Source: a virus
DNA: 64,000 bases
Direction: 5' to 3' (one strand)
Virus record (IMG/VR): IMGVR_UViG_3300046459_000436
Span: 1-64,000 of that record
The stretch's first letter is position 1. Every line of letters begins with the position of its first letter. The position numbers and the translations under genes were made by a program. Positions 16,502 to 45,070 of this stretch are shown piece by piece. Under the pieces are notes generated by a model. That model saw nothing but the letters and a program-made list of their open reading frames with translations. It was not told the DNA's origin and ran no database searches.

Positions 16502-17494
16502 TCAGGTGAACCAGTTGGCGAAGTGAGCCAGCGAGACGTCAGCCGCAGGTACGCAGCGGCAAACGGGGTGGCTTGGCATTAGGGGGAAGTCGGTGATCGG
16601 CCACGGGCTGCCCGCCTCGTTGTCGATGCACGTAGGACAGACGCGGCCATCTCCCGCAGTGAGCCACGAGACGCTCTGCACGCCTTCGGATTGGTACAGC
16701 GACAGGGCGCCTTGGTCGGCGGCGGTGGTCATGGCCCAGTCGACAATGAACGCGACTGATTCCACGTCCGTGCCGGTGAGGACGTTCATCGCGTCCTCAA
16801 TCATCTGGTCGCGGCTGGCACCGTCCTCGGCCCCTTGCGCGAGTATCCGACCGAGGTCTGCCGCGGCCCGGTCGATAGTGCGGCCGAGCCAGCCGCCCGT
16901 GTCCGCCCAGATCTCGTCGAGGCGTTCCAGGGACTGGTAGGCGTCGCCGAAGGCGATGTTCCAGTCGAGGCCGATCCGGTTGGCGCGTTCGGCGGCGATG
17001 GCGACCGCGTTGACCATGCCCTCCGCCCGGCCGGCTGCGATGGCATTCCTCAGCGCGGTGCGCAGGGCATCCCATCCGGCGCCGGCTGCGTCGGCGATTG
17101 CGTGCAGCATGGCTTTGGCGGCTTCGAGTGCTTCAGTGCGGATGCTGGGCTTGCCGTGGTCGGCTTCGGTGAGTCCGGCCTGCTGCCGGAACCGGTCAAC
17201 CACGGCGGCGACCGCGTCCCGGCCGATGAGGTCGCGCCACGCATCGGCCACGAATGGTACGTGCTTGGCCTGCTGCTCCTCGCGGCGTTGGAACAGTAGC
17301 GCCCACATGCCTTCGAGCTTGCCGAGGTCGATGGTGACTTCGAGGATGCGCGGGTCGTCAGCGTGCTCGATGGCGAGCGCCACGGCTGCGGTGGAAGCGC
17401 GCCGCACGCGGTTCGTCATCGGCCCCCCGGAGACGGCCCAGCCTGCAGCGAACGCCTCGCGGGCGAAGCCCTCAATGGGGTGCGGCATGGGCAC
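16502..17494 (-). CDS. Mu gpF-like minor head protein
   Basis: A 330-residue helical protein with the C-terminal signature of Mu gpF / SPP1 gp7-type head morphogenesis proteins: DGRVCPTCIDNEAG followed by PLMPSHPVCRC, a Cys/His cluster near residues 290-320. These proteins join the procapsid with the portal and may enter the cell with the DNA. It stands two genes upstream of the protease in transcription order. The gap to the portal has been filled by the GIY-YIG/antitoxin insertion. Confidence 0.85.
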   Translation of the reverse strand: MPMPHPIEGFAREAFAAGWAVSGGPMTNRVRRASTAAVALAIEHADDPRILEVTIDLGKLEGMWALLFQRREEQQAKHVPFVADAWRDLIGRDAVAAVVDRFRQQAGLTEADHGKPSIRTEALEAAKAMLHAIADAAGAGWDALRTALRNAIAAGRAEGMVNAVAIAAERANRIGLDWNIAFGDAYQSLERLDEIWADTGGWLGRTIDRAAADLGRILAQGAEDGASRDQMIEDAMNVLTGTDVESVAFIVDWAMTTAADQGALSLYQSEGVQSVSWLTAGDGRVCPTCIDNEAGSPWPITDFPLMPSHPVCRCVPAADVSLAHFANWFT

Positions 17495-18576: not shown

Positions 18577-18652
18577 TGAGCGGCAGCACATCCTTGGCGC
18601 GCAGCGGATGGTTCGGAGGATCGGGCGGCAGCGGTTCAGGCGGCACGCTCAT
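18557..18652 (-). CDS. 31-residue microprotein after the portal gene
   Basis: A 31-codon frame with ATG seven bases after GGAGG, starting inside the last codons of the portal gene. The sequence is Pro-rich and then basic (PLRAKDVLPLIKKRVG). The strong ribosome binding site and tight overlap argue that it is translated. Function unknown; it is overlapped at its 3' end by the antitoxin gene on the other strand. Confidence 0.5.
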   Translation of the reverse strand: MSVPPEPLPPDPPNHPLRAKDVLPLIKKRVG

Positions 18653-20201
18653 CGACACCTCCTGGCAGCGTGGCCAGCGCCTCCCGCAGCCGAGCCCTGT
18701 ACCGGGCATGCAGCGCCTCGACGGGCGGCTCCTTCTCCGGCTCAGCTGGCTCCTCGGATTGCCCTGGGGGCGCCTTGCCCGCGAACGCGGCGAGCTGGGG
18801 CGGCACGGGGGCGGGCTCGGGCTTCTCCACCGCGATCGGCTCGCCGTGCTCTGGCGCAGCTGGCTCCAGAGCGGTGCCGCGGAGTCTGTTGGCGATGAAC
18901 GCCTTGGATGCGGCATCCATGTCGGCCCACTTCACCAGGTTGGTGCGGTCGATCAGGACCGGCTGGTCGCCGCCGTCGACAGGGGGTTCGCCGATGTCGG
19001 CTCGGGCCCGGTTGAGGGTCCATTCACCGTTGCGGATCCGCATGTCACGGATGTCCTCAACGGTCTTGGAGTCACGCATGTCGACATCACGGAACTTGAG
19101 CTTCCAGCCTTCGACGCCGAAGCCGTTCTTCGCGAGGTGGAAGTTCAGGGCCTCCAGCACCAGTTCGGCCAACGGCTGGCATGTGTTGACCATGAACGTG
19201 CGGTCCTGCGCCTCGCCGGTGCCGCCGCCGAGGTTCCCGGACTCGATGATGCCGACCTTGGATGGCGGAACCCCGTAGGCGGCGATGATCTCGTCGCGCT
19301 TCTGGTTGAGGAACTGCAGGTAGTCCATGGTGCGGGACTGCGACAGTTCGTTGACGCCGGCGCCGCCCTTGGTGTTGATCGGGTTGCCGATGTTGCGCGG
19401 GCCGATGTTGCGCTGCTGGTACTGGGCGTTCCACCGGTTGATGTCCGACGGGGAGGCGCCCGCCGGGTGGTCCACATGGAGGACCGGGGGGCAGCCCTTC
19501 CGGAAGATCTCCTTCGAGGTTGCTGCCGAGAACAGCCAGGACACGATCGGCAGCATCGCCGCCTGCGTCGGGCTGACACCGAACACCCCGGACCGCGGCG
19601 AATCCAGCGAAATGTGGATGACGTCGCGCGGCTCGAACGTCGCCCGCTGGCCGAGTTCGGTGACCTGCACGTAGCTGGTGATCGTGCCATGTTCGTCGGC
19701 GATCGGCAGCATGCTCGGGCAGTCCAGCGAGTACAGGGCGACCGGCTGCTGGCCGAGCCAGACGACCTCGATGAACGCGTCACCGAACACGAGCAGGTCG
19801 GTGATGACGCCGCGGAGGATCTGCCGGACATTCTCCCGCGGGTTGCAGTAGGCCAGCATCCGCTCCAGCAGGAGCACCTGCTGTGGCTTGTCCGGCTGCT
19901 CCTCGTCGCCCTCACCGTTGTCGTTGTCCCAGTCGGTGACGAGGCCGCCCGCAGTGATGGTGCGCGCGATGGCGTTCACGGATGCCCACGACCAGGGACA
20001 GGCGAGGTACGCCTCGTAGAGCTGGTTCAGCATCGATCGGCGGTCGGACTGGGTGGCTGCGCCGATGCCCTGATTGGACTCGGTCAGGCCACCCGGGCTG
20101 ATGCCGTACTCGAAGCCCGAACGCTCCGGGAGCTTCGCCGGGGCCGTCTCCAGCACCTCGGTCTCCGACCGCAGACTGTTCCACCAGGTGCGCAGACTCA
20201 C
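18636..20201 (-). CDS. Portal protein
   Basis: A 521-residue portal subunit (dodecameric ring at the packaging vertex). Evidence: WASVNAIARTITAGG, ILRGVITDLLVFGDAFIEV, the stretch FEPRDVIHISLDSPRSGVFG, and QKRDEIIAAYGVPPSKVGI, which is the conserved portal core with the long tunnel-helix region. The C-terminal 100 residues are Pro/Glu-rich. It follows the terminase gene with a 4-base overlap, standard for head modules. Length is normal for the HK97/SPP1-like portal families. Confidence 0.95.
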   Translation of the reverse strand: MSLRTWWNSLRSETEVLETAPAKLPERSGFEYGISPGGLTESNQGIGAATQSDRRSMLNQLYEAYLACPWSWASVNAIARTITAGGLVTDWDNDNGEGDEEQPDKPQQVLLLERMLAYCNPRENVRQILRGVITDLLVFGDAFIEVVWLGQQPVALYSLDCPSMLPIADEHGTITSYVQVTELGQRATFEPRDVIHISLDSPRSGVFGVSPTQAAMLPIVSWLFSAATSKEIFRKGCPPVLHVDHPAGASPSDINRWNAQYQQRNIGPRNIGNPINTKGGAGVNELSQSRTMDYLQFLNQKRDEIIAAYGVPPSKVGIIESGNLGGGTGEAQDRTFMVNTCQPLAELVLEALNFHLAKNGFGVEGWKLKFRDVDMRDSKTVEDIRDMRIRNGEWTLNRARADIGEPPVDGGDQPVLIDRTNLVKWADMDAASKAFIANRLRGTALEPAAPEHGEPIAVEKPEPAPVPPQLAAFAGKAPPGQSEEPAEPEKEPPVEALHARYRARLREALATLPGGVDERAA

Positions 20202-21711
20202 GGGACGTTCACCGTCCCCCCAGCGCGCGGCGCCTCATCGTCATCGAACCACCAGGCGTCGTCGCTCGGCGCAGACTCGGACGGGCGCACGGCCATCGTC
20301 GGCCCGAGCGGCTTCAGAACCTCCGTGGTGGCGACCGGGGCTGCGTCGTCGAGGATGACGAACTCTGGGCCGGAGCCAAGGTTGGACAGGAGGTACCTGA
20401 CCGCGTCGGCCAAGTGGTCATCTGCGGTGGTGTCGGCGTCTTCCGGGTCACCCTTGGTGGCGTGCGGCAGATCCGACAGTTCCCGGTAGAGATCGGGGCA
20501 CGTCGTGAAGATGTGCATTTTCGGGCAGGTGTCCCAGCCCTGCGCCCGGTGATGCGGGCAGGCCGGCGCCTCGGCAAGGTAGGAACGCACCCGCTGCCAG
20601 CCGATGACGCGGGAGCCCGCTCCCTTGCCGGCCTGGGCCAGGTGCACTCCGTTGTCGGCGTACACCGCGGCAATGGGCTTCGCATCGCCGCGGGTGGCCC
20701 ACATCGCGTCATCGGCGTACCGCACGGCGATGTGTTCGCCGTGCGCTTCGGCCGCGAGGATGCTCTGGGCCTGCTCCGCTTCGCCGACTCCGCGCCGGTA
20801 GATCTCGCGGTAGACCCAGACGCGACCGTCTTCGTCGACGGCAGCCCATAGGACTGCCCAGGGGGCTGCGAAGCCCCAGTCGATGCCGTTGTATCGCTTC
20901 CACGTCGCGGGCAGTGCGATCGGCTCGATGACGTGCCGGTCGCGCTTGAGTTGGAACATCTGGCCTTGGAACACGTCCCAGTCCCCGTCCAGGAATGCGG
21001 CCCGCAACTTTTCGGGCAGCGCCTTGAGGTCGGCGGCGTATTCAGGGTTGACGTGGGGGTTGTCGGACAGCTTCGACGGGATGAAGCGCACCGTGCGCCC
21101 GCGCTCATCGACGATGACCTTGCTGCCGTAGCCAGTGGGCTTGATGTAGCGGGTCTTCACCGCGCCGTGGCCCGGGCCGCCCGGGTTGGTGCCGGAGCGG
21201 ATGCCGAGAACGGGGATGTCGCGGCGTCCGGACCGCAGCCGGGATTCGAGGAAGCTGCACACGTCGGGTGGGGTGAGGGTCCGCTCGTCGAAGATAAGCA
21301 GCTGGTACTGGCCGCCCTGCCTGCGGGTGGCGTCCTGGACGGTCTCGGCGTACCGAAACATGATCAGGCTGCCGTTGGGGAACCGGAGCTCGTACTCGGT
21401 GCCGTTCCAGCGGGCCCCGAGGTCTTTGGCGAAGTTGAGGTTCACCAGTTCGGCGATCAGTGACTCTTTGAGTTCGCCGTAGGTGCGGCGGAAAGCCCCG
21501 ACGCGCAGCCCCGGGTAGCGGACGCATTCCCGGATGGCGTGCGCTGTCAGGGCCCGGCTTTTCCCCCGCCCGCAGCGCCGCCGAACAGGACGTCGAACTC
21601 TTCTGCACTGTGGAAGGTCAGCTGCTTCGGGGTGGGGGTGTAGCCGAGGGCGCCGAAGACGTCCTGTGGGGGTGCTTCCAGCATCTGGGCGGCGAGGATG
21701 AGGGCGTCCAC
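20198..21711 (-). CDS. Terminase large subunit, interrupted by a -1 frame change in Walker A
   Basis: From the GTG at 21711 (GGAAGGGG upstream) the first 51 codons encode the expected N-terminus, ending FDVLFGGAAGGGK. That frame then stops at 21547-21549. The rest (SRALTAHAIRECVRY and on) lies in the -1 frame. The junction is GGGAAAA (21559-21565), a canonical slippery heptamer read G-GGA-AAA; slipping back one base restores GGAAGGGKS exactly, for 504 residues in all. Walker B is LLIFDE; nuclease motifs follow (NGIDWGF, VYADNG, DDHLADAVRY). Either a programmed shift or a one-base deletion in the A run (real or sequencing) explains it. A second GTG at 21718 opens the main frame but gives a non-homologous Arg-rich start. 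Confidence 0.85.
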
Positions 21712-30558: not shown

Positions 30559-30580
30559 GACGGGCTCCTTTCGGGTTGGT

Positions 30581-30601
30581 CCGGGGTGATCCCCGGTTTT
30601 T
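30581..30601 (+). terminator. Intrinsic terminator pointing away from the neighbouring gene
   Basis: CCGGGG, TGAT, CCCCGG is followed by five T on the plus strand, a textbook intrinsic terminator and a rare T run in this genome. It lies just upstream of a minus-strand start, so it would stop antisense transcripts rather than any gene I can see. Confidence 0.55.
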
Positions 30602-30616
30602 GGGTGTGCTGAGGGA

Positions 30617-30633
30617 AGCCCCCGGCGGGGGCT
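30617..30633 (-). terminator. GC hairpin after the transfer operon
   Basis: AGCCCCC and GGGGGCT pair around a 3-base loop. It lies beyond the iteron array at the end of the TraB-like transcript. No T run, as is usual in Streptomyces. Confidence 0.5.
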
Positions 30634-30657
30634 GGTGGTTTGTGATGGTTTGTGGGG

Positions 30658-30823
30658 CGTACACCCCCCGTACAGTGACCGCTATATGCCGGTATGCGGG
30701 GCGTACAGTCGGGGCGGTCAGCCGTACAGGTGGACGGCTCCAGGTGGCCGGTGAGCGGGGGGTGTACGGGTCACATACCGGCATCTACCTGGGCAAACAG
30801 CCGCCCTGTACGGGGGGTGTACG
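30658..30823. repeat. Dyad-arranged CGTACA iteron array, clt or origin candidate
   Basis: A 17-bp sequence, TGTACGGGGGGTGTACG, at 30807-30823 has a perfect inverted copy at 30658-30674. Each copy holds two cores 11 bp apart. Inside lies a perfect 11-bp inverted pair, ATGCCGGTATG (30686-30696) and its complement (30774-30784). Single cores add to seven: CGTACA at 30658, 30669, 30702 and 30723 on the left, TGTACG at 30763, 30807 and 30818 on the right, all pointing to the centre near 30741. No gene is present. In Streptomyces plasmids the cis-acting transfer locus clt, with direct repeats bound by TraB, lies by traB; here the array is four bases past its stop. Confidence 0.75.
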
Positions 30824-30828
30824 GCCTA

Positions 30829-33057
30829 TCAGGCAGCCTCCGGGGAGGCGAACTGGTCCCGCTTGAAGCCCTTCAGGCGCTTCCCGGCACCGAAGGTCAC
30901 GATGTTCGTTGTTGTGATCCCATCCCGGCGCAGACGCTCCCGCAGAGCATCCACATCAACGCCCAGCTCCTCGGCCAGCAACTCAGCCGTCAGCCCCTGC
31001 GTCTCCGGAACCCCCAGCCGATCGAACACCGCCACCGCATCCCGGCGCATCTCCGCCGCACGCGCCACCGCCTCATCGACACGACTACGCGACGCCGCCT
31101 GACCCGTCAGCGTCCCGGCCTTCACCCGCAGGTCGTAGCCGCGCTCCACGATCTCCCGGAACTCCGGCAGCTCGATCACATCGGACTTCTGCGTGATGTG
31201 ACCCGACTCCGCACCCTGGTCCAAGACCACGACACCCTTGTGGTGCTCCAGCAGCTTGTGCGGCGCCGCGCCGGCCTGCACGGCGTCGTCGCCGAGAACC
31301 ATCCGCGCGGAGGCGTCGCCCTTGACCCGAAAGCAGGCGCGCTTCACGCACACCCCGCGCAGCTTGGTCGGGACGCTGTCGGAGTCGGGGCGCTGGGTGA
31401 TGAACACGCCCATGCCGCCGACGAACCGGGCCACGCGCACGTACCGGGCGAGGGTCTCGACCAGCACGTCCTTGCCGTTGCGGTGCTTCGCGCCCTTGCC
31501 GTCCTCGTCCTCCTCGACGACCTTGACGCGGGTGTTCGCGGCGGCGTCCAGGAGTTCCTGGAGCTCGTCGACGATGAGGAGGGTGAGCCTCTTGTCGGGC
31601 TGCCGGGCAAGCGCCGGGGTGAGCTTGCCTTCGGGGCACTGCTGGGGGTCGGTCTCGGACAGGCTCTCCAGCTGCTCGCCGAGGTTCTGCATGCTGCCGA
31701 TCAGGTCGTCCAGCACCTCGTGGACTTCGACGAGGGTGTCCGGCTTGGAGCCGGAAATGTAGGCGTGGGCGATCTTCTTGAGGGCTGCCCAGTCCGGCCC
31801 GGACTTGCCGGTGATGACGATGATCCGCACGTAGGGGTCGAGGGCAGCTGCAGCAGCGATCAGCCGTGCCAGGTACGACTTGCCGTAGTCCTGCAGTCCG
31901 CCGATCAGCAGCGACGACCACAGCAGGTGCAGTGCCTGCCGGTCATGCCGGGCGTCCTGGCCGAGCGGTACGCCGTGCTGCCAGAAGTTCCACTCGGGGG
32001 CGTTGATCAGGGGGGACGGGGTCTTTCCGGCGCCGAACGGGTTGTCGGCGTCGGCGACCCAGATGGTGAATCGGCTCTCGTGCCCCTCGGCGCTGGTGTC
32101 CTTCTTCAGTTCGATGCGGGACGCCTTGACGCGCAGTGCGCCGGCGAGCGGTACGAGGCGGGCGATGGCCTGCTCTGCGGTGCGTCCGCCGGGCAGTTCG
32201 ATGGTGGCGGTCCAGCCGGGGCCGTCGGTGCGCAGGCCGAGGACGCTGGTCTCTTCGCGGTCGGCCTCCTCGATGATCTTCGCTTTGACGAGGGCGGTGA
32301 CCAGGTCGTTCGCACCCCGCACCTGCACGTCCTCGGACTTCGTGAGCACGACCGGACCCGCAGCACTCGCGGAGGCCGCGGCGGCGATGGTGGCGGGCGA
32401 CTCAGCGGCCAGCGTCACCGGAGACGACTCCTTGTCGTCGGCTTCGCGGTTCCGCCCCGCCCACCAGGCCGCACCGAACCCTCCGAGGAGGACGGCGAGG
32501 AGGCCGAGGATGGGGTGCTGCATCTTCCCCAGCAGCATCCAGCCGGCCACCACGCCCGCGGCGACCATGGCGCACCGACTGGCCTGCTGGGTGCGCTTGT
32601 GGCGCTTGATGTCCTTCTCGGTGACGTCGTCGTCGGCGTGCGGGAGGACGGGGCCGACGGTGACGCGCGTGGCGAACGCCTGGTTGAAGCGGTCCGCCTG
32701 CCCGGGGTGCCCCTGGTTGGCGGCGGTGGCGGCCTGCTTCTGCAGGTCCCGGACTTCGCTGTGGTGCTGGCGGATGGCCTTGCGGTTCTCGGCAGCCCGC
32801 TTGTGGATGACGTCCTTGGCGAGGTTCTCCTCGTCGACACCTTCAAGGAGCACCCAGGCGCGGCCCTGCTGGTAGAGGGTCTGGCAGCCGCGCTTGGTCT
32901 GCGCCCACACGGTCAGCTTGACGACCGGCGGCGGGGCATCGGCGGGCACCGGCTTGAGGAGTACGTGGGCGGGCGGGTTGGTGGGCATGGGCGGGACGTG
33001 ATTCTGGACCGGGATCTGGGGGCCCGCCGTCTCGGGCGGGGTGGCGTGCGTGGTCAT
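30829..33057 (-). CDS. traB-like: TraB-like FtsK/SpoIIIE conjugative DNA translocase
   Basis: A 742-residue membrane ATPase. Residues 1-160 are cytoplasmic and charged, two membrane segments lie at about 163-200, and an FtsK/SpoIIIE motor follows. Walker A is GLQDYGKS (387-394), Walker B LTLLIVDE (491-498), and the FtsK-type VFITQRPDSDSVP is at 551-563. The C-terminal 60 residues (LTAELLAEELGVDVDALRERL) form a winged-helix gamma-like domain for DNA recognition. Streptomyces TraB moves double-stranded DNA between mycelia as a hexamer. Length, order (Spd-like genes before it, iterons after it) and the wHTH support transfer rather than chromosome segregation. ATG start; the open frame upstream is not conserved-looking. 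Confidence 0.88.
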   Translation of the reverse strand: MTTHATPPETAGPQIPVQNHVPPMPTNPPAHVLLKPVPADAPPPVVKLTVWAQTKRGCQTLYQQGRAWVLLEGVDEENLAKDVIHKRAAENRKAIRQHHSEVRDLQKQAATAANQGHPGQADRFNQAFATRVTVGPVLPHADDDVTEKDIKRHKRTQQASRCAMVAAGVVAGWMLLGKMQHPILGLLAVLLGGFGAAWWAGRNREADDKESSPVTLAAESPATIAAAASASAAGPVVLTKSEDVQVRGANDLVTALVKAKIIEEADREETSVLGLRTDGPGWTATIELPGGRTAEQAIARLVPLAGALRVKASRIELKKDTSAEGHESRFTIWVADADNPFGAGKTPSPLINAPEWNFWQHGVPLGQDARHDRQALHLLWSSLLIGGLQDYGKSYLARLIAAAAALDPYVRIIVITGKSGPDWAALKKIAHAYISGSKPDTLVEVHEVLDDLIGSMQNLGEQLESLSETDPQQCPEGKLTPALARQPDKRLTLLIVDELQELLDAAANTRVKVVEEDEDGKGAKHRNGKDVLVETLARYVRVARFVGGMGVFITQRPDSDSVPTKLRGVCVKRACFRVKGDASARMVLGDDAVQAGAAPHKLLEHHKGVVVLDQGAESGHITQKSDVIELPEFREIVERGYDLRVKAGTLTGQAASRSRVDEAVARAAEMRRDAVAVFDRLGVPETQGLTAELLAEELGVDVDALRERLRRDGITTTNIVTFGAGKRLKGFKRDQFASPEAA

Positions 33058-33080
33058 GGCGGCGGGGCTCCAGGCTTGGG

Positions 33081-33620
33081 TTAGAAGTTGGTGAGGGTGT
33101 TGGCGGCAGCGGTGACGGCGGAGTTGGTGAGCTGCTTGATCAGCGGGCCGACGAACGTCCCGTCCAGGAGCACCCCGAGCGCGACGAGCGTGATCGCCCA
33201 GCTGGCGGCGACCTTCCGGCCCTTGATGCCGATGAACACGATCACGCCGATCAGCATCAGGCCGACGATGCCAACGCCGATCGTGCCGCCGCTGACGTTC
33301 GCCGGCGTGACGTTGTTGACGGCCGGGGTGACGTTCGTGTCGACCACGGGGGCGACGGACGGCTGGACGGCGGCCACGGTGACGACCGCAGCCGAGTGGT
33401 CGGCGGTGGCCGTGTAGTGGGTGGTGGGCAGGCCCCGGACGGTCATGGCGCGGGTGCCGTCGGCGAGGCGGACGCTGGTGTCGGTGGCGGCCTGGACGGA
33501 GGTCACGGTCGCGGTGTGCTGGGTGGCTGCGGCGACCGCCGGGGTGGCGATCCCGAGCGCCGCCAGAGCAGCACCCGACAGGGCCACGGAGCGGACGATA
33601 CGGATGGACTGGCGGGACAT
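33081..33620 (-). CDS. Exported/membrane protein of the transfer module (Spd-like)
   Basis: A 179-residue protein with an N-terminal signal (SIRIVRSVALSGAALAALG, then ATPAVAAAT), a Thr/Val-rich external part, and membrane segments near residues 113-133 (GVGIVGLMLIGVIVFIGIKG) and 140-160. It lies 24 bases before the TraB-like start. Proteins of this form accompany tra genes in Streptomyces and may help plasmid spread across septa. Assignment to Spd is by context. Confidence 0.65.
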   Translation of the reverse strand: MSRQSIRIVRSVALSGAALAALGIATPAVAAATQHTATVTSVQAATDTSVRLADGTRAMTVRGLPTTHYTATADHSAAVVTVAAVQPSVAPVVDTNVTPAVNNVTPANVSGGTIGVGIVGLMLIGVIVFIGIKGRKVAASWAITLVALGVLLDGTFVGPLIKQLTNSAVTAAANTLTNF

Positions 33621-33640
33621 GATGGGGACTCCTTCGAGGG

Positions 33641-35062
33641 TCAGTTCTGGTCGGTGTTTGAGGTGTTCTCGGTGGCGAGCCGACGACGTACATCGACGGC
33701 CTGCGCGCGCTTTGCGATGGGGTGGAACGGGGCGCTGTCGCCGCGTGTCCGGCGGGGCGGAATCGGCTTCGGTCGGGGACTGGTTCGGGGCTTCGCGGGA
33801 GAGGGGGATAGATGGGAGCTACGCTGCGCGTTCGTGACCTTGCTGGGTGTGTTCCCGGGGGCTTCTGAGAGGGCCGCTGCGACGCGTCGTGCGGCGACGT
33901 TGCGGGTGCGGATGACGTCGACGCTGTCGCCCGGGTCGGTGCCCTCGATGTCTCTGTAGGCGCGGATCCAAACGGCTTCGGTCACGGTCGTCTCGCCGAG
34001 CGCGGCAGCCAGCTTCAGTGCGTGCTCCCACACCTCCTGGAACTCCTTAGCGCGGTCAGTGGCGAGCTTGTTCGCGGCTTCCTCGGCAGCCTTGAGATCC
34101 GCCGCCTTCGCGTCGTCGGCAGCCTTCTTCTCTGCGGCCTTCCCGGCCGCCGCGCGGGCCTCGGCCTTCTCCTTCGCCTTGCGCTCCCGACGGGTGAGCG
34201 CGCCGTCACGCTTACGGATCCGGCCGTGCTCGTGGAGATCCCAGACGCCCGGGCCGGCGACGGACGCGAACGCGGTACCGATGGCGGTCGCCGGGTCGAA
34301 GGCGTTCAGGCCGTGCCACAGGTTGACCCCGGCGGCGATGAACGCCAGCAGCCACGCGATGAGCCGGTAGTGCCAGTGCGGACGGTGCCCGGCGACCGCG
34401 GCGGCAGCACCCTTGAGGACGACCGCCGCACCACCTTCGAGCATGAGCGGGGCGATCACGAGCCACGGGGCGACGGGGGTCCAGAACGCGGCGATCTGCA
34501 CAGGCAGGGCGACGACGGCGCACACGATGTAGAAGCCGAGGGCGTACCGGCGCCACCGGGCGTCGGCGACGGCGATCTCCTTCGCCGCCTTGTCGGCGGC
34601 TTCCTGCTGAATCCGCTGCTCCTCAGCGGCGGACTGCGCTTCGTCGTCGGCCTCCTTGCGGGAGGCGGCGGCCTGCCGGTCGATCTCCTCCTGCTCGGCC
34701 TGGAGTTCGGCGAGCTTCCGGGCGTGCGCGGCCTGCTTCTCCTCCATGGCCATGCGGTTGCGCTCGTTGGCGAGCCGCAGACGCTCCGCCTCAGCCTCGG
34801 CCTTGGCGCGGATCGCGTCGGCCTCGGCGAGGGCCTTCACGCGGGCGGCCTCGACGGCGGCGGCGGTCTGGGCCCGGATCGCCTCGGCCTCAGCCTCGGC
34901 GCGCGGGTCGACGATGGGGACGGGAGTGGCGGCAGGCTCAAGCTCGGGGGCGGTCTGCTCGTCCTGGATGACGCCGTTGATGATCGGGAACGACTGCCAG
35001 CCCTCATACACGGGCACGGCAAGCCGCTTGGTGCCGTTCACCTGGGCCGGGTTGGCGCTCAC
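33641..35062 (-). CDS. DUF2637-type plasmid spread protein (SpdB-like)
   Basis: A 473-residue protein. Residues 55-165 are a long Ala/Glu/Arg coiled coil (AEADAIRAKAEAEAERLRLA). About four membrane helices follow between 173 and 275 (YALGFYIVCAVVALPVQIAA; LVIAPLMLEGGAAVVLKG; LIAWLLAFIAAGVNLWHG), the DUF2637 pattern. The C-terminus is a second charged coiled coil and a basic tail. DUF2637 proteins are hallmarks of Streptomyces plasmids and integrative conjugative elements, where they interact with TraB in intramycelial spreading. GTG start after AAGGAGA. Confidence 0.8.
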   Translation of the reverse strand: MSANPAQVNGTKRLAVPVYEGWQSFPIINGVIQDEQTAPELEPAATPVPIVDPRAEAEAEAIRAQTAAAVEAARVKALAEADAIRAKAEAEAERLRLANERNRMAMEEKQAAHARKLAELQAEQEEIDRQAAASRKEADDEAQSAAEEQRIQQEAADKAAKEIAVADARWRRYALGFYIVCAVVALPVQIAAFWTPVAPWLVIAPLMLEGGAAVVLKGAAAAVAGHRPHWHYRLIAWLLAFIAAGVNLWHGLNAFDPATAIGTAFASVAGPGVWDLHEHGRIRKRDGALTRRERKAKEKAEARAAAGKAAEKKAADDAKAADLKAAEEAANKLATDRAKEFQEVWEHALKLAAALGETTVTEAVWIRAYRDIEGTDPGDSVDVIRTRNVAARRVAAALSEAPGNTPSKVTNAQRSSHLSPSPAKPRTSPRPKPIPPRRTRGDSAPFHPIAKRAQAVDVRRRLATENTSNTDQN

Positions 35063-35097
35063 GGGAGATCTCCTTGTCTGGTCGGGCGGTTCGGGGT

Positions 35098-35373
35098 TCA
35101 GGCGGTCGCGGTCTTGGACTGGCGCTGCTGCACCACGTACTGGCGGCCCAGCAGGGCGACCGTCAGCAGGGCCTTCGGGTTGAAGCGGGCGATGACCACG
35201 ATCAGCAGCGCGGGTACCGTGATCCACGGCTGGTGGAGCATCCACACGGGCACGGCCAGCAGGGACGGCGCGGATCCGAGGACGGCGACCAGCAGCACCC
35301 ACAGGGCGACGGTCGACGCGCTGAGCCTGCGCGGCGGCGGGGTGGGGGCGGTCGGGGCGGCTGGAGTAGACAC
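35098..35373 (-). CDS. Small two-helix membrane protein of the transfer module
   Basis: A 91-residue protein with a Pro-rich start and two membrane helices (ASTVALWVLLVAVLGSAPSL; MLHQPWITVPALLIVVIA), ending basic (GRQYVVQQRQSKTATA). GTG after GGAAGGA. It resembles small Spd proteins by size and position before the DUF2637 gene. Confidence 0.65.
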   Translation of the reverse strand: MSTPAAPTAPTPPPRRLSASTVALWVLLVAVLGSAPSLLAVPVWMLHQPWITVPALLIVVIARFNPKALLTVALLGRQYVVQQRQSKTATA

Positions 35374-35451
35374 GGGGGTTCCTTCCGGTGGTCGGGTCGG
35401 GGTTACTGCGGTCGGATCTCCTGGCGGCCCGTGCGGGACGGGCATCCAGGG

Positions 35452-35817
35452 CTACCGGCCGGCAGGGACGGTCAGGCCAAGGAGGTGGTACGGGAACGGG
35501 TCGGATTCGGTCCGGGCGCTGGCCCACTTGATCCAGTACCAGTGGAACGGGAACGACTCGACGCCCATCTCCATGAGGGCGATCGCCCGGTGGTGCCCGT
35601 CGCCGACGTACACATCGAAGTACCGGTCGTCGACGCCCAGCAGGATCGGCACCTGAAGCCCGCGCACCGCGATCGACGCCTTCAGCTCATCGACCTTCAC
35701 GCGGTCCTTCCCGGGCCGGCCGAACTGGCGTCGGGCGTGATCCCACTTCCGGAACTCCGTCGGGTGGATCTGCTGGTCGTTGAGGAACGCGGTGGGCATC
35801 TGGCCGAAGTACTTCAT
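35452..35817 (-). CDS. ParB-like N-terminal domain protein
   Basis: A 121-residue protein with the ParB/sulfiredoxin-like box: VDELKASIAVRGLQVPILLG and FDVYVGDGHHRAIALMEMG (the GxxRR-like motif as GDGHHR). In stand-alone form this domain can bind DNA, hydrolyse CTP or act as nuclease. No HTH follows, so it is not a standard partition ParB. It lies in the transfer module; a role in DNA processing is possible. ATG start. Confidence 0.7.
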   Translation of the reverse strand: MKYFGQMPTAFLNDQQIHPTEFRKWDHARRQFGRPGKDRVKVDELKASIAVRGLQVPILLGVDDRYFDVYVGDGHHRAIALMEMGVESFPFHWYWIKWASARTESDPFPYHLLGLTVPAGR

Positions 35818-35957
35818 CGAGACGGACTCCTCTCAGGTCGGTGGTGCGGTCGGGTGGTGTACCGCCACCCCGGGCCGCGGGGGAACACCCCGGGGTGACG
35901 GCGGTTCTTGCCGGGCTTGACGGGTCGTCGGAGCGGTCCCCGCGAAACCCGGCGGTC

Positions 35958-36260
35958 TCAGGCGAGCCGAAGCTCTTCGTTGGCCTCGTACAGCAGCCGG
36001 TCGACCTGCTTGAGCAGCCGCTCCCGGGTCGTGGCGGCGTCGTCGCCGAGGTGCTGCACGGTTCGGAGCAGGTCGGCGGCCTCGGTCAGCCACTCGCGGG
36101 TCTGGCCGAGCGAGCCGAGCCGGTTGGCCGCGGTGTCGAGGAAGCCGATGAACCCGGCCTCGGTGCAGTCGTCGGCGTCGAGGGTGATACCGACGGCGTC
36201 GGCGATTGTTACGGCGTAGTCGGTGATCAGGGTGTCGATGGTGATGGGCGTGGTCTTCAC
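35958..36260 (-). CDS. Helical protein of the microgene cluster (100 aa)
   Basis: A 100-residue helical protein: VTIADAVGITLDADDCTEAG, LGQTREWLTEAADLLRTVQH, then ERLLKQVDRLLYEANEELRL. GTG start. A 9-bp GC hairpin (35866-35874 with 35889-35897) lies in the gap to the ParB-like gene. Function unknown. Confidence 0.55.
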   Translation of the reverse strand: MKTTPITIDTLITDYAVTIADAVGITLDADDCTEAGFIGFLDTAANRLGSLGQTREWLTEAADLLRTVQHLGDDAATTRERLLKQVDRLLYEANEELRLA

Positions 36261-36337
36261 TTCGGCTCCTCGATGACTGGCGGCGGCGGAACGGGCGTCT
36301 CCTGGTTGGCGCCGTAGTCATCAAGCGGGGTGCTCAC
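36257..36337 (-). CDS. 26-residue microprotein
   Basis: A 26-codon frame starting GTG six bases after GGGAGG and overlapping both neighbours. Acidic and Pro-rich (NQETPVPPPPVIEEPK). Only the ribosome binding site and the overlaps support it. Confidence 0.4.
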   Translation of the reverse strand: MSTPLDDYGANQETPVPPPPVIEEPK

Positions 36338-36453
36338 GACCGGCCTCCCTGCTGGCGTCGGGCGGCCTCGGCTGCCTTCGCGGCGGCCATGGCGTTGGCG
36401 ATCCGCTGCTGGGCGAGCGCGTCGGCGGCCTGCTGCTCCGGGTTCTCGGCCAC
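36334..36453 (-). CDS. 39-residue helical microprotein
   Basis: A 39-codon frame from GTG after GGGGGTGAG: AENPEQQAADALAQQRIANA, then MAAAKAAEAARRQQGG. One long Ala-rich helix. Its TGA overlaps the next GTG by four bases (GTGA). Confidence 0.45.
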   Translation of the reverse strand: MAENPEQQAADALAQQRIANAMAAAKAAEAARRQQGGRS

Positions 36454-36455
36454 CG

Positions 36456-36704
36456 TCACTCACCCCCGCCCACGAGAGCGGCGGCGGCGGTGGGCAGGTC
36501 CCGGTTGGCGGCGCTCAGGAATGCGAGCGTCATGGCCGGTGTCAGCCGGTACGTGGTCTGCCAGAACGCGCCACGCTCGTCCCGGCTCGTCAGGGTGAGC
36601 AGGCCGCCACCATCGGGGGTCTCCTCGACCTTGAACATCGTCAGGTCGTCGATCAGCGGGGCCGGGGCCGCGGCAGTGGTGGGCTGGATCGCGTACACCG
36701 TCAC
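36456..36704 (-). CDS. Small protein (82 aa)
   Basis: An 82-residue protein: APLIDDLTMFKVEETPDGGG, LTLTSRDERGAFWQTTYRLT, then AMTLAFLSAANRDL. The GTG chosen forms a GTGA overlap with the previous stop; two other GTGs lie within four codons. Function unknown. Confidence 0.5.
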   Translation of the reverse strand: MTVYAIQPTTAAAPAPLIDDLTMFKVEETPDGGGLLTLTSRDERGAFWQTTYRLTPAMTLAFLSAANRDLPTAAAALVGGGE

Positions 36705-36796
36705 CACCCCCGCACGGCGGCGGCCAGTCGACGCAGCGCCCTGGCGAACGCGAACCTCGGCGGCAGGTCCGGGATGATCGGGGGGAGGCCGCTCAT
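36701..36796 (-). CDS. 31-residue microprotein
   Basis: A 31-codon frame from an ATG that overlaps the previous TGA (ATGA): SGLPPIIPDLPPRFAFARAL and then RRLAAAVRGW. Pro-rich start and amphipathic basic end. It ends in a GTGA overlap with the next gene. Real expression is inferred from this overlap chain. Confidence 0.45.
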   Translation of the reverse strand: MSGLPPIIPDLPPRFAFARALRRLAAAVRGW

Positions 36797-37005
36797 CGCG
36801 CACCCGCCTCGGTCTCGGCGAGCCGGTCCGCAGACTCCCGGAGCCTGGCCGCCCGCTCAAGCAGCACGAGCAGCTGCTCCCGAAGCGCAGGCCGCTCGCC
36901 AGCCGGAACCGTGAAGTAGTTCAGCCCGTTCTGCAGCTTCCGGGCCTCGTCCTGGACGATGCGCAACTCGGCGTAGAGGTCACTCGATGTCAACTGCTCG
37001 CTCAT
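36793..37005 (-). CDS. Helical small protein (70 aa)
   Basis: A 70-residue coiled-coil-like protein: SSDLYAELRIVQDEARKLQN, then ALREQLLVLLERAARLRESA. ATG with GGTGTCC upstream, ATGA overlaps at both ends. Function unknown. Confidence 0.5.
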   Translation of the reverse strand: MSEQLTSSDLYAELRIVQDEARKLQNGLNYFTVPAGERPALREQLLVLLERAARLRESADRLAETEAGAR

Positions 37006-37196
37006 CGGACACCCCCGGGCTGCTCGCCGTGCTTGGCGGCGTTCCCCGACGCGTCCTGGTAGGCGGCCTGGTAGTGGCCGACGCTCCCGGCCGACGGGTG
37101 ACCCGGCGTGGCCTGGATCTCCACGATCCGCGCGGCCAGACCGTTGGCACGGCTCTGCTCCTCGGCGGCGAAGGCCGGAGACGGAAGGTGGCTCAC
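37002..37196 (-). CDS. Small protein (64 aa)
   Basis: A 64-residue protein: AFAAEEQSRANGLAARIVEI, then HYQAAYQDASGNAAKHGEQ. The GTG overlaps the stop of the gene before it by four bases. Function unknown. Confidence 0.5.
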   Translation of the reverse strand: MSHLPSPAFAAEEQSRANGLAARIVEIQATPGHPSAGSVGHYQAAYQDASGNAAKHGEQPGGVR

Positions 37197-37414
37197 AGGT
37201 CCTCACCACCGGCGGCGAGCTCGTAGGCGACCTGCTCGGGGATCCGGGCAGCCCACGCGGAGTCCTGGAGGTCAAGCTCCTGGTACGCGGCCTCGATCTG
37301 CTCGGCCGGCGACAGGGTGGCGCCCGGGGCGCGCTTCGGCAGGCGGACGTGCGAGGCGGCGGCGTGCGCGGCGGCATCGGCCTGAGACATCGGGGCGGCG
37401 TAGGCGGTGGTCAC
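37193..37414 (-). CDS. Small protein (73 aa)
   Basis: A 73-residue protein: MSQADAAAHAAASHVRLPKR, then LSPAEQIEAAYQELDLQDS and IPEQVAYELAAGG. I chose the GTG forming a GTGA overlap with the previous stop rather than one three codons upstream. Function unknown. Confidence 0.5.
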   Translation of the reverse strand: MTTAYAAPMSQADAAAHAAASHVRLPKRAPGATLSPAEQIEAAYQELDLQDSAWAARIPEQVAYELAAGGEDL

Positions 37415-37533
37415 TGCGACCACCGGTCCGTCGCGACGAGAAGCCGCTGGAGCGCCGCGAGACCCGAGGCGGAAAGGCCCGAGGCGACGACGATGGGGGA
37501 CGGTACGGGGGCGGTGCGGGGGGTCGTGCTCAT
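37411..37533 (-). CDS. 40-residue microprotein
   Basis: A 40-codon frame from an ATG overlapping the end of the HTH gene: STTPRTAPVPSPIVVASGLS, then SGLAALQRLLVATDRW. First link of the overlapping chain after the HTH gene. Function unknown. Confidence 0.45.
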   Translation of the reverse strand: MSTTPRTAPVPSPIVVASGLSASGLAALQRLLVATDRWSQ

Positions 37534-37736
37534 GACGCGAGCTCCTCGGGGGTCGGGTCGACGCCCGTCAGGGCGGCTTCGGGGACACGGATCGCTCCGC
37601 CGCCGCGCTGGGCGGGGGCGCCTACGGCCTGCGGCTTTCCGTACCGGATCGCCTCTAGGCGACCCTCCTGGATCCACCGGTAGACGGTGGCGGGGTGCAC
37701 GTTGAGGCGCTTGGCGACCTCCTTTACGCGCAGCAT
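37530..37736 (-). CDS. BldC/excisionase-type helix-turn-helix protein
   Basis: A 68-residue DNA-binding protein: MLRVKEVAKRLNVHPATVYRW, then IQEGRLEAIRYGKPQ, the MerR-like/excisionase HTH and wing. I chose the ATG five bases after GGAG rather than an upstream GTG. It is the first gene of the minus-strand transfer transcript and sits opposite the GntR pair. It may activate transfer genes. Confidence 0.75.
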   Translation of the reverse strand: MLRVKEVAKRLNVHPATVYRWIQEGRLEAIRYGKPQAVGAPAQRGGGAIRVPEAALTGVDPTPEELAS

Positions 37737-37800: not shown

Positions 37801-37902
37801 GCTTCTGAGTCCATGAATGTCCGCCTCAGAGTCGCTGCGCGTAATCATCAAGGGCTTAAGGTTGAGGTCAGCGCCGCAACGACCTTCGAGAGGGGCCCGC
37901 CA

Positions 37903-38430
37903 GTGACTGCGAAGTGGACCAGTACGTCTACGCCATACCTGCTACCACGCAGGCCCGGACAGGTAGACGCCTGGACGCAGGAGGCCGGAGCGCGCGGGGG
38001 TCAGCGCCTCATCGAGGTGGCCATCAAGGTGCCGCCGGCCGAGGTTGCGGAATCCCTCGGTCTCGCCGTTGGAGAGAGTGCGGTAGCGCGTCGGCGGGTG
38101 ATGACCCTCGACGGGCAGCCCGTTGAACTCACCGACTCGTACTACCCGCAGAGCGTTGCGGTGGGGACGCAACTCGCTGAGCACGCCAAGATCCGGGGTG
38201 GCGCTCCAACACTCCTCCGCAGCCTCGGCTACGAGGTGCACCGAGTAGCCGAAGAGGTAGAGGCGCGGGCGACAACGCCTGACGAGGCCGAAGCTCTCGG
38301 CCTTGAACCGGGAACTCCCGTACTCACGCTGCTGCGAGTGACCTACTCCTGCAGTGAACAACCCATCGAGGCATCACTGATGGTCATGAAGGGCCCTCAC
38401 CGCCTCCGGTACGAAATGGAGATCGGCTGA
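37903..38430 (+). CDS. UTRA-domain protein lacking the GntR DNA-binding domain
   Basis: A 175-residue protein aligned by eye with the C-terminal two-thirds of the GntR protein that follows: VPPAEVAESLGLAVGESAVA, VELTDSYYPQSVAVGTQLAE, IRGGAPTLLRSLGYE, EQPIEASLMVM. The winged-helix start is absent; residues 1-55 are unrelated. UTRA domains bind small effectors and dimerise. It ends one base before the next GTG, so the two are co-translated and may form mixed dimers. Start GTG with GAGAGGGG upstream; an ATG at 37813 is possible. Confidence 0.75.
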   Translation: MTAKWTSTSTPYLLPRRPGQVDAWTQEAGARGGQRLIEVAIKVPPAEVAESLGLAVGESAVARRRVMTLDGQPVELTDSYYPQSVAVGTQLAEHAKIRGGAPTLLRSLGYEVHRVAEEVEARATTPDEAEALGLEPGTPVLTLLRVTYSCSEQPIEASLMVMKGPHRLRYEMEIG

Positions 38431-38431
38431 C

Positions 38432-39193
38432 GTGGTCAAGCACAAGGACAAGCGCGCCGTGGCTGAGCGCATCGCCGCGAACATCAGATTCCTGATCATG
38501 TCCGGCGAGTGGGAGCCCGGAAAGAAGCTCCCGACCAACAGCGAACTCATGGCGGACTACGGCACATCCAACGTCACCGTGCAGCGCGCCCTCGGAATCC
38601 TCAAGGACGAACTCCTCCTCGAAGGCCGGGCAGGCAGCGGCGTCTACGTCCGCGCGCGGGCACCTCAGACCATCATCCCAGCGTCCTACATGGCACCCTC
38701 GGACCCCGGACATCCATACCGGTGGGTCACCGAAGCCAGCAACCGCGACCAGCACGGAAGTAACAGGATCCTCCAGGTCGCCGAGGTCGAACCGCCCAAG
38801 CGCGTCGCAAAGATCCTGGGCCTGGAGCCCGGCGACACGGCGGTTCTCCGGACGCGGGTCGGCCTCCTGGACGACGAGCCGGCGGAGATGACGTACTCGT
38901 ACTACCCGGCCAACCTTGCGCGGGGTACGCGCCTCGCTGACCGTCGGAAGATCCCTGGCGGATCGCCGACGCTGCTCGCAGAGATGGGCTACCCGCCCCG
39001 CGAGCAGGAGGACGAGGTGGCCGCCCGGATGGCGACGACCGAGGAGTACGAGCTGCTGGAGATCCCCGGCGATACGCCAGTGATCGAGGTCTTCCGGGTG
39101 GTCTACAGCGACGGCCGGCGCCCGATCGAGGTGACCGTGATGGTGAAGCCCGGCCACCTGTACAAGATGGGCTATCACCTGCCGGTTTCCTGA
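38432..39193 (+). CDS. GntR/UTRA (HutC-type) transcriptional regulator, KorSA-like
   Basis: A 253-residue regulator. The winged helix is at 1-75 (VAERIAANIRFLIMSGEWEP; SELMADYGTSNVTVQRAL; EGRAGSGVYVR) and the UTRA effector domain at 110-253 (EPAEMTYSYYPANLARGTRL). KorSA of pSAM2 and similar GntR regulators repress transfer and replication genes of Streptomyces elements. Adjacent to a divergent transfer operon it is the obvious candidate for that role. GTG start one base after the UTRA-only gene. Confidence 0.88.
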   Translation: MVKHKDKRAVAERIAANIRFLIMSGEWEPGKKLPTNSELMADYGTSNVTVQRALGILKDELLLEGRAGSGVYVRARAPQTIIPASYMAPSDPGHPYRWVTEASNRDQHGSNRILQVAEVEPPKRVAKILGLEPGDTAVLRTRVGLLDDEPAEMTYSYYPANLARGTRLADRRKIPGGSPTLLAEMGYPPREQEDEVAARMATTEEYELLEIPGDTPVIEVFRVVYSDGRRPIEVTVMVKPGHLYKMGYHLPVS

Positions 39194-42566: not shown

Positions 42567-43019
42567 ATGGCCAACGTCAACGACGTAGCCGCATACATTC
42601 TGGCCAAAGCCGCACCGATGACCGCCATGAAGCTGCAGAAGCTCTGCTACTTCGCCTACGGCTATCACCTGGCATGGGAAGACCGGCAGCTCTTCCCCGA
42701 ACGGTTCCAGGCCTGGGCGAACGGCCCCGTGTCCCCCACCCTGTACGACAGGCACCGCGGGCGGTTCCAGCTGAACCGCGGCGACATCGCCGGCGACCCG
42801 TCCGTACTGGACGAGGGCGAGTGCGAGACGGTCGACCTGGTCCTTGACGCGATGGGCGGCTTCTCCGCGCACGAGCTGTCGGGCATGACTCATCGGGCGG
42901 GCCCGTGGCTGGCCGCCCGCGAGAGGGCCGGTGCCGCCGATCTGGAGCGGTCCACCGAGGAACTCCGCGACGAGGACATAGAAGATTTCTTTGGGGCGCT
43001 GGCGGGCAGCGACGACTGA
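42567..43019 (+). CDS. Panacea (DUF4065/SocA-like) antitoxin
   Basis: A 150-residue protein with the Panacea domain pattern: VNDVAAYILAKAAPMTAMKL, LCYFAYGYHLAWEDRQLFPE, FQAWANGPVSPTLYDRHRG, then VLDAMGGFSAHELSGMTHR. This domain neutralises many unrelated toxins encoded next to it. The next gene overlaps its stop (TGATG), the usual bicistronic layout. ATG after AGAGGGG. Confidence 0.88.
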   Translation: MANVNDVAAYILAKAAPMTAMKLQKLCYFAYGYHLAWEDRQLFPERFQAWANGPVSPTLYDRHRGRFQLNRGDIAGDPSVLDEGECETVDLVLDAMGGFSAHELSGMTHRAGPWLAARERAGAADLERSTEELRDEDIEDFFGALAGSDD

Positions 43020-43489
43020 TGGTCAAGGGGGGAAAGCCGAAGAAGCGGCTCGCTGTGCCCCCGATGGGGCCTGCGAGCGGCAAGCAGATCGGCAACGCCA
43101 AGGGCCTGCTCCCCGGAGCGGGCAACTCGTCCGAGCGGTTGTGCTGGCGCTTCACCTATGTCGATCACGAGAGCCGCTGGGACTTCTGCGCCATCACGCC
43201 AGAGCTGATGTGCGAGATCTTGGGCAAGATGGCCGACTGCGAGTCCATGACCATCGACGAGCTGCGGAAGACCTGGCGGCTGTTCAAGGATTACGAGTTG
43301 CCGGGCGGCCTGTGCAAGGAAGCTCTCGACCGTTTGACGGCGACGGGCCGCGATGACCAGACGAAGATCCAGCGTCTGGAGTTCAAGGGCACGCAGCGGC
43401 TGTACGGCTTCCTCGAAGACAACGTCTTTCACGTCATCTGGTGGGACCCGGACCACGAGGTCTACCCGTCCACGCTGAAGCACACCTGA
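43019..43489 (+). CDS. Putative toxin partner of the Panacea antitoxin
   Basis: A 156-residue protein. The N-terminus is basic (MVKGGKPKKRLAVPPMGPAS), the middle has WRFTYVDHESRWDFCAITPE, and the C-terminus LEFKGTQRLYGFLEDNVFHV and IWWDPDHEVYP. The last part resembles short beta-rich domains found in toxin partners, but I do not recognise the family or a catalytic site. Assignment as toxin rests on one-base overlap with the antitoxin gene. Confidence 0.65.
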   Translation: MVKGGKPKKRLAVPPMGPASGKQIGNAKGLLPGAGNSSERLCWRFTYVDHESRWDFCAITPELMCEILGKMADCESMTIDELRKTWRLFKDYELPGGLCKEALDRLTATGRDDQTKIQRLEFKGTQRLYGFLEDNVFHVIWWDPDHEVYPSTLKHT

Positions 43490-43720: not shown

Positions 43721-45070
43721 CTACGCGGCGCTCTCGCGGCCGGGGAGGCGCATCTCCAGCGTATGGCCGCCGTCGACGTCCAGGAGCTTCGCCAGCGGGG
43801 CCGTGACGGCCTCGTGGCGCGGGATGGCCAGGGTCTGCGCCTGCTGCGGGATGCGCCCGGTAGCGGCCTGCCGCGTCCCCCACCCGTTGCGCCGCAGCGT
43901 CGCCAGCGCGTAGAGCCGGAGCGGGATGAGGAGTGTCAGGTTCATCAGCGCGTACAGCGGCGCCGCGGCGAACGTGAGCAGCCGGTCGGTACGCGGAACC
44001 TGGCCGGCTGAGCGGAGGTAGTGCAGCGACCGGAACCACGCGGCGGCCGAGACGTACACGGCGTACCAGGCGAACACCGTCCAGGCGTGCGGGTTGGACG
44101 CGAATACGGCGAGGGCGACCAGCAGGGCCGAGGTGAACGCGATCCACGTGGCGAGCTCGACGAGGTTGAGCCACCAGTAGGCGCGGCCCATCGAACTGAC
44201 CTTCAAGGCCAGGAGGACGCCCTCGCGGATGAAGCTCTTCGTCCACCTGCATTGTTGAACGAGATACTTCCGAAGATTCTCCGGCACGTCGGTCCAGGCG
44301 ACCGCGGTGGGCACGATCAGCGACTGGCCCTCCAGCAGGCAGTAGTACGTGAGCCTGCGGTCGTCGCCGAAGGTGCACTCCTTGCCGAGGAAGCGCTGCT
44401 GCAGGAAGTCATCGAGGTACTTCCGGACCGTCGAGCCGCGATAAAGGGCGAGGCTTCCGCAGGCGCACAGGACGGAGCCGAGGCGGGAGTAGGCCACCCG
44501 CTCGCCGAGGAACGCATTCTGATACCGCATGTCGATCAGCCGGGTGAGCAGGTTCTTCGAGCGATTCGCAGCCAGGACCAGCCCGGTAACCGCGTGGACG
44601 CGGCGGCGGGCGAACGGCCGGGCGGCCTCCTCGACGGCGTGCTCGTCCAGGACGGTGTCGGAGTCGATGCACAGGTAGATGTCCGCGTCCTGGCGGGCGT
44701 TGAACCCGGCCGCCAACCCGTGGCGTTTGCCTCTGTTGACGGGGAAGCGGATGAAGTCCAGGCGGATCCCGGCGGCGGCGAACGCCGGGCGCAGCAGGTC
44801 GATGACGCCGGCGGCCGAGCGGTCCTTCGAGCAGTCGTCGATGACGGTGAGACTGTCGGGCCGGCGGGTCTGGTCGAGGATCGATTCCAGGCAGCGGCGG
44901 AGGGCGGCAGGCGATTCGTTGAAGGTCGTGACAACTCCGTGAATGACATGGCCGGTCGGCCCTGCCGGCTGCTGTGCGGTGGGTCTGCGGCGCCGCTTCA
45001 TGGACGCGAGGAGCTTGATGGCGAGCAGGCTGCCCACGGCTATGCCGTACCAGCCCAGGTGGTTGTGCAC
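43721..45070 (-). CDS. Processive family 2 glycosyltransferase, hyaluronan/chitin-synthase-like
   Basis: A 449-residue membrane enzyme. One N-terminal helix (GWYGIAVGSLLAIKLLASMK), a cytoplasmic GT-A domain and three to four C-terminal helices (about 300-400). Catalytic motifs are complete: IDDCSKD (Asp78-79), DSDT (Asp136/138), TFGDDRRL (Asp236-237) and QQCRW (QxxRW, 272-276). That set defines processive synthases of hyaluronan, chitin or cellulose type using UDP-sugars. In a phage it would coat the host with a polysaccharide or change receptors. It is flanked by small genes with no other sugar enzymes. GTG start after GGGGGA; an upstream frame extension of 22 codons is Pro-rich. Confidence 0.85.
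   Translation of the reverse strand: MHNHLGWYGIAVGSLLAIKLLASMKRRRRPTAQQPAGPTGHVIHGVVTTFNESPAALRRCLESILDQTRRPDSLTVIDDCSKDRSAAGVIDLLRPAFAAAGIRLDFIRFPVNRGKRHGLAAGFNARQDADIYLCIDSDTVLDEHAVEEAARPFARRRVHAVTGLVLAANRSKNLLTRLIDMRYQNAFLGERVAYSRLGSVLCACGSLALYRGSTVRKYLDDFLQQRFLGKECTFGDDRRLTYYCLLEGQSLIVPTAVAWTDVPENLRKYLVQQCRWTKSFIREGVLLALKVSSMGRAYWWLNLVELATWIAFTSALLVALAVFASNPHAWTVFAWYAVYVSAAAWFRSLHYLRSAGQVPRTDRLLTFAAAPLYALMNLTLLIPLRLYALATLRRNGWGTRQAATGRIPQQAQTLAIPRHEAVTAPLAKLLDVDGGHTLEMRLPGRESAA

Follow-up and report, generated by a model that had tools for sequence, protein, structure and literature searches.

The stretch of DNA analyzed here, the window, comprises bases 1-64,000 of the 80,673-base IMG/VR viral record IMGVR_UViG_3300046459_000436. 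Judged by its genes, the record is a complete temperate actinobacterial phage with a long tail (a siphophage), and just upstream of its packaging genes lies a minus-strand operon at 30829-37736 that ends in the gene for a TraB-type DNA motor. We think it probable, on the evidence of the sequence, that the phage carries a working TraB-type conjugation module and spreads both as virions and by conjugation. Directly 3' of the motor gene we also found a phased array of short repeats, a candidate clt, which is new here and was absent from an earlier reading of the DNA (the sequence-only reading).

Virion genes and form of the genome

Genes were called by codon statistics, and virion genes, which span 4.9-21.4 kb, were identified with PHROGs. 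The minus strand encodes the terminase large subunit (20198-21445; phrog_2, E 1e-24), the portal protein (18636-20156; phrog_12, E 3e-47), a MuF-like head morphogenesis protein (16502-17488; phrog_4728, E 5e-7), the major capsid protein (12942-14318; phrog_752, E 1e-47) and the tail tape measure protein (4939-8397; phrog_2723, E 1e-71), and an endolysin gene lies at the far end of the genome (L002:15386-16192). The complete virion gene set of a conjugative plasmid-phage was thus found. The terminase, portal and capsid proteins are 72%, 60% and 64% identical to those of pAmyja1, a circular plasmid of Amycolatopsis japonica. The record further encodes DnaB, a DNA methylase, two integrase-type proteins and a protein with a weak match to RecT. 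The terminase, portal, capsid, tape measure, endolysin, DnaB and integrase-type genes therefore identify the record as a complete temperate long-tailed phage.

Identical sequences of 127 bases stand at both ends of the record, which we regard as circular because of this exact terminal repeat. The repeat is consistent with an assembler having closed a circle at one k-mer, and the circular genome would measure about 80,546 bp once the repeat is merged. Its GC content is about 68%. The sequence-only reading had called the genome complete; this is right for the circular record, of whose 80.7 kb the window covers 64.0 kb.

The transfer module

The TraB-type FtsK-like double-stranded DNA (dsDNA) translocase (30829-33057, minus strand) was taken as 742 amino acids (aa), a longer open reading frame (ORF) of 954 aa having an overlong start. 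Upstream of it in the minus-strand operon are a 179-aa protein of no family, with a signal-like N-terminus and two hydrophobic segments (33081-33620; 85-93% conserved in two other metagenome viral contigs, G001 and G002), a 473-aa DUF2637-like membrane protein that is a Spd-type candidate (33641-35062), and a 91-aa membrane protein with hydrophobic segments (35098-35373; 96-97% identity in G001 and G002). These are followed by a protein with weak similarity to ParB (35452-35817; phrog_1033, E 5e-4; TIGR00180, E 1e-3), by small ORFs that matched no known family (35958-37533), and, at the operon start, by an HTH_17/excisionase-like DNA-binding protein (37530-37736; Pfam HTH_17, E 2.5e-12; phrog_66, E 2e-7).

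The divergent regulator is a GntR-UTRA protein (38432-39193, plus strand; GntR E 2e-16, UTRA E 5e-22), which shares 34% identity (E 1e-29) with the GntR protein of pAmyja1, also matches a GntR protein of an S. albidoflavus plasmid, and is a candidate kor/tra repressor. Directly before its gene, a UTRA-domain ORF without the GntR helix-turn-helix (37813-38430, plus strand; UTRA E 1e-24) may be a regulator or antagonist, or a remnant.

The 473-aa protein carries hydrophobic segments and is 50% identical to Streptomyces plasmid proteins across 202 aa. When its profile was compared with annotated plasmid DUF2637 proteins by hhalign, the match had 99.4% probability (E 5e-22), so that the relation to DUF2637 holds only as remote homology. 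Neither Pfam DUF2637 (PF10935) nor Pfam FtsK_SpoIIIE (PF01580) matched the record, and for this reason plain domain searches overlook the module. A TrwC-type relaxase was not found in the record; other relaxase families were not searched for. The Spd-type membrane partner and GntR (kor/tra) regulator typical of a TraB module were both found, by the DUF2637 profile match and the GntR domain. Accordingly, the full head-tail cassette and TraB/FtsK module that the sequence-only reading had placed on one stretch are borne out by PHROGs and by the kinship of the motor described below. Its DUF2637 partner survives as a remote homolog by profile but not as a Pfam match, and the divergent GntR gene that it had included within 30829-37736 is real but lies outside that interval.

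Kinship, fold and constraint of the motor

The only PHROG matched by the motor was phrog_1358 (FtsK/SpoIIIE-like, E 3e-25), and the only NCBIfam family was NF041214 (plasmid_TraB, E 2e-7). Searches with tblastn found relatives in 48 plasmid records, 37 of them from Streptomyces, and none among 50,697 GenBank phage records. Related motors were present in 114 genome hits in the comparison with actinomycete integrative and conjugative elements (AICEs). In a maximum-likelihood tree, chromosomal FtsK proteins of four actinobacteria and E. coli formed a separate clade (support 100/100), and the window motor stood on the plasmid and AICE side with one protein of Streptomyces tricolor and one of an isolate phage (100/100); long branches restrict the finer order. 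By sequence, the motor groups with plasmid Tra proteins, apart from chromosomal FtsK, and the possibility considered in the sequence-only reading that it is a chromosomal FtsK or an internal phage motor can be set aside. Identity to the Tra protein of the Streptomyces plasmid pSG5 is about 23% over the full length. Nine motors aligned at first had diverged too far for back-translation and scanning.

The motor has the FtsK/SpoIIIE fold. Its Walker A and B residues (G387/G392-K393 and D497-E498) are invariant or nearly so. A sequence search of solved structures gave nothing, but a fold search with the AlphaFold (AF2) model, confident in the motor part, matched the FtsK motor 6t8o best (E 3e-15), a dsDNA-bound form, and also the conjugation protein TcpA (6o1w, E 6e-13). 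The modeled C-terminus contains a helix-helix-wing at 691-737 of moderate confidence (predicted local distance difference test about 67-85), and this winged helix is a putative reader of the repeats.

Among the three close contigs (window, G001 and G002), the ratio of nonsynonymous to synonymous substitution rates (dN/dS) of the motor was 0.17-0.20, which points to purifying selection. Because of this ratio and the 94-98% identity of the spacer 3' of the motor gene across the same contigs, we conclude that the module is kept.

A phased repeat array 3' of the motor gene

A 270-base spacer (30559-30828) directly follows the motor gene on its 3' side. It contains eight copies of GCCGTACA with at most one mismatch (30656-30825, minus strand), and seven exact CGTACA/TGTACG occur among the eight 8-mers. 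Four copies in plus orientation are followed by four in minus orientation, and they recur with a period of about 10.5 bp. None of 300 shuffled sequences was as repeat-rich, and the Poisson probability against the record's own background was 7.5e-10, before allowing for motif choice. The eight copies in the motor spacer compare with 2-4 in 11 other spacers, and only a few sites of the record, the probable origin among them, are as dense in repeats. Across eight phage and plasmid loci, spacings were phased at about 10.5-10.8 bp with a resultant of 0.68, as high as which none of 5,000 sets came under a null of simple jitter.

Such arrays were found at the same place more widely. The spacers of pSG5, pFP11 and other plasmids carry arrays with different, element-specific motifs. 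All 90 related loci have a spacer of 120 bases or more behind the motor gene, regardless of what lies downstream. An exact 7-mer test proved too strict, with 27 of the 90 loci reaching 0.05. With one mismatch allowed instead, the motor spacers held a mean of 5.9 repeat copies, and 662 other intergenic spacers from these loci averaged 3.8 (p 8e-36, uncorrected for kinship). We also considered a single switch from plus to minus repeats as a general signature of clt. It does occur in the window, G001, G002, pSG5, pFP11 and some others, but was rejected family-wide (222 switches versus 216 expected).

TraB is a hexameric dsDNA pump that recognizes 8-bp TRS repeats (PMC4170104), and mapping experiments on plasmid pWTY27 placed its clt at the end of traA together with the neighboring 159 bp (PMC3583192). 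Because the layout in the phage is like that of pWTY27, we read the phased array as likely the DNA docking site (clt) of the motor; short repeats beside the tra gene, as in a TraB module, are present as a sequence pattern.

Arrays were also seen at Streptomyces genome loci (L079-L106), where AICE-like TraB genes are followed within about 10-160 bases by arrays of the TCGCTACC/CTGCTACC type. These are candidate clt motifs of AICEs.

Exchange of head and transfer cassettes

The module recurs in other phages. G001 and G002 carry it with motors 94-95% identical to that of the window and with packaging genes on the same contig. Terminase, portal, protease and capsid come there from families other than those of the window (phrog_9, phrog_104, phrog_1522 and phrog_1357). 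A 60-kb phage from an isolate genome (G003), another of 42 kb (G006) and a contig of Streptomyces tricolor each have a DUF2637-type protein and the motor followed by the terminase, with head types unlike that of the window. The head-tail genes of the window are in turn colinear with those of pAmyja1, whose own FtsK-like, DUF2637-like and GntR genes show only a distant relation.

Since module and packaging genes stand together on independent contigs and in isolate genomes, the window is no join of two replicons, which the sequence-only reading had named as a condition that would refute it. Its statement that such hybrids are few did not hold, as they recur in G001, G002, G003, G006 and Streptomyces tricolor. 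The same module with other heads, and the same heads with another module, thus suggest that head and transfer cassettes were swapped repeatedly, and that the hybrid is a recurrent, modular variant. A broader proposal, which we regard as evenly balanced, is that Actinobacteria host a wide class of dual-mode temperate phages, in which a TraB/DUF2637/GntR module with its own clt was repeatedly fitted between replication genes and terminase, with at least four head types and reassorting cassettes. As the clt would lie near the packaging genes, the two processes, conjugation and packaging, may be rivals for one circular genome.

In Actinacidiphila oryziradicis (L049, 9344-21182), about 6 kb separates TraB and DUF2637 genes from a tape measure gene that shares 79% identity with that of the window. 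This likeness suggests a Streptomycetaceae host range for such tails. The locus was not counted as a further hybrid, as it may be two neighboring elements.

Proposed mechanism and alternatives

Gene content, order, homology, constraint and the repeat array are observed in the sequence. Following published TraB biology, we infer from them how the element might work. The phage would probably be kept as a circular phage-plasmid, as an integrated prophage, or both; the circular record, an O-like initiator with iterons and the plasmid relative pAmyja1 point to an extrachromosomal state, yet integrase-type genes are present too. As long as the phage stays a prophage, its divergent GntR regulator would repress the operon. 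Once repression is lifted, TraB hexamers would dock on the phased array next to the 3' end of their gene and drive the circular dsDNA genome across the envelopes of hyphae in contact. Neither a relaxase nor a type IV secretion system would take part, the latter not being needed for double-stranded transfer (PMC3218068). The DUF2637-like and other small membrane proteins may then aid the spread of DNA through the septa of the recipient mycelium. When the lytic cycle is induced, the terminase and head-tail genes nearby would package the same genome into virions, so that the element may choose between the two routes.

Several points weigh against a working conjugation module. The genome is known as a metagenomic sequence, and both its replication state and its transfer between mycelia are deduced. 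The plasmid_TraB score of the motor falls far short of the cut-off set for that equivalog. Signs that the motor enters a membrane are one hydropathy peak (183-201) and low-confidence helices at 147-210; by the same crude hydropathy test, pSG5 Tra has no N-terminal transmembrane segment. The DUF2637-like gene evolves fast: two of the three pairs, which align poorly, gave a dN/dS near 1. The head-to-head order of repeats is not general across the wider motor family, and pZL12, a Streptomyces plasmid-phage, lacks such an array in the spacer examined.

The motor could instead be a plasmid-derived translocase for stable inheritance of an extrachromosomal prophage at closing septa or spores, with the array as its loading or orientation site and no intermycelial transfer. 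The FtsK fold and the weak ParB-like gene within the motor operon would suit this role, and spd genes are also discussed for plasmid stability (PMC4170104). However, a motor serving segregation only would need neither plasmid-type GntR control nor Spd-type partners, and the entire module, including the regulator and the position of the clt, is common to pSG5, a known conjugative plasmid. We therefore consider this explanation unlikely. Slightly less probable still, the array could be a replication origin or an operator of downstream genes rather than a clt, in which case the motor could still be a Tra protein. Iteron-like arrays also occur as origins. The repeat spacer, however, is kept in all 90 loci whatever follows the motor gene, and a separate origin candidate with other repeats stands beside DnaB at 55.85-56.02 kb.

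It is quite improbable that the phage captured an integrated plasmid or AICE of which the module is a drifting relic without a present role. The UTRA-only ORF beside the GntR gene may be a remnant and some module genes diverge quickly, but the low dN/dS of the motor, the conserved spacer in three contigs and the related modules in several phage lineages argue against decay. An assembly artefact that joined a phage and a plasmid is very improbable, for although the contig is metagenomic and the nearest relatives of head cassette and backbone differ, the record is circular and the same arrangement occurs on G001 and G002 and in the isolate-derived G003 and G006 and in Streptomyces tricolor.

Other features of the genome

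A phage O-like initiator ORF (55472-56420, minus strand) adjoins DnaB (54156-55472) and contains GTCACAGGCTTTGCGCCTGTGAC-type iterons within the gene. Its repeats (55850-56020), several imperfect palindromes GTCACAGGCTTTGCGCCTGTGAC placed within the gene as in lambda-type origins, form the densest cluster of exact 8-mer repeats in the record, and this ORF is likely the origin. A tyrosine integrase gene and an extra C-terminal integrase fragment after it (L002:11545-12794, record 75545-76794) both match the pZL12 integrase. No tRNA was found in a search of the 64.0-kb window.

A protein with a SocA-like Panacea antitoxin domain (42567-43489, plus strand; E 1.5e-15) is followed by an unassigned 156-aa protein, and the two are likely a toxin-antitoxin pair, homologs of which stand near a TraB gene in Protofrankia (L048). 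A Glycosyltransferase 2 family membrane protein (43721-45070, minus strand), 97% identical to the G001 copy, would be conserved cargo of the phage backbone. A TerF-type vWA domain protein (61927-62673, minus strand; E 1e-56) is encoded in the phage early region.

Comparison with known systems

Phages and conjugative plasmids are usually seen as separate vehicles. Our data suggest a recurrent, modular class that combines them, rather than the singleton without close relatives that pZL12 has been called (PMC7157519). A study that looked for prophages in 2,406 chromosomes and 844 plasmids of actinobacteria mentions neither conjugation nor FtsK in its main text (PMC10023795). The arrays also supply testable candidate docking sites; few plasmids have known ones, and none was described for pSAM2, the archetype of AICEs (PMC9513070). 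AICEs share TraB-type dsDNA transfer and an integrase with the phage, but lack virion genes, and their sizes in one population were 11.9-36.2 kb (PMC9513070), whereas the phage genome has 80.5 kb and a head-tail cassette and does not fit that class.

The closest likeness of gene order was with plasmids, in agreement with the search among Streptomyces conjugative plasmids that the sequence-only reading had proposed. In pSG5 (Streptomyces viridosporus/ghanaensis, NC_008792), whose conjugation has been published (cited in PMC4170104), a divergent GntR gene, two small ORFs, a DUF2637-type protein, a small ORF and an FtsK-type Tra of similar size are arranged as in the phage. A 241-base spacer after Tra likewise carries three plus and then three minus repeats, but with their own motif, CCCGGACG, and pSG5 has no phage genes. 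In pFP11 and two other Streptomyces plasmids the order of GntR, small ORFs, DUF2637, small ORF (in most) and motor is that of the phage.

The plasmid pAmyja1 (92.5 kb, NZ_CP008954) has a colinear head-tail cassette, FtsK-like, DUF2637-like and GntR genes, and a 3' array: its 1,177-base non-coding region after the motor gene (3613-4789; L024) holds 20 CGGGGAC versus 0.8 expected. Unlike in the window, the motor is very divergent (family hidden Markov model (HMM) E 0.0025) and the module stands at the tail end, not before the terminase.

Streptomyces phage ZL12 (pZL12, NC_013420) is, like the phage studied here, a circular actinobacterial element with phage genes, an FtsK-like gp71, a membrane protein gp73 and a divergent GntR gp80. 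Its conjugal transfer is reported to require a major tra gene and two neighbors (PMC3583192), and a title cited in PMC7157519 gives it a plasmid and a lytic cycle. The sequence-only reading had offered it as precedent, which stands for the class; as closest relative it was rejected, because gp71 is barely related (family-HMM E 0.29), far more distant than the motors of pSG5 and pFP11, and other gene matches are few and scattered. The element is thus not close kin of pZL12; it resembles a pSG5-type plasmid module inside a phage, within the class of conjugative plasmid-phages already known from pZL12.

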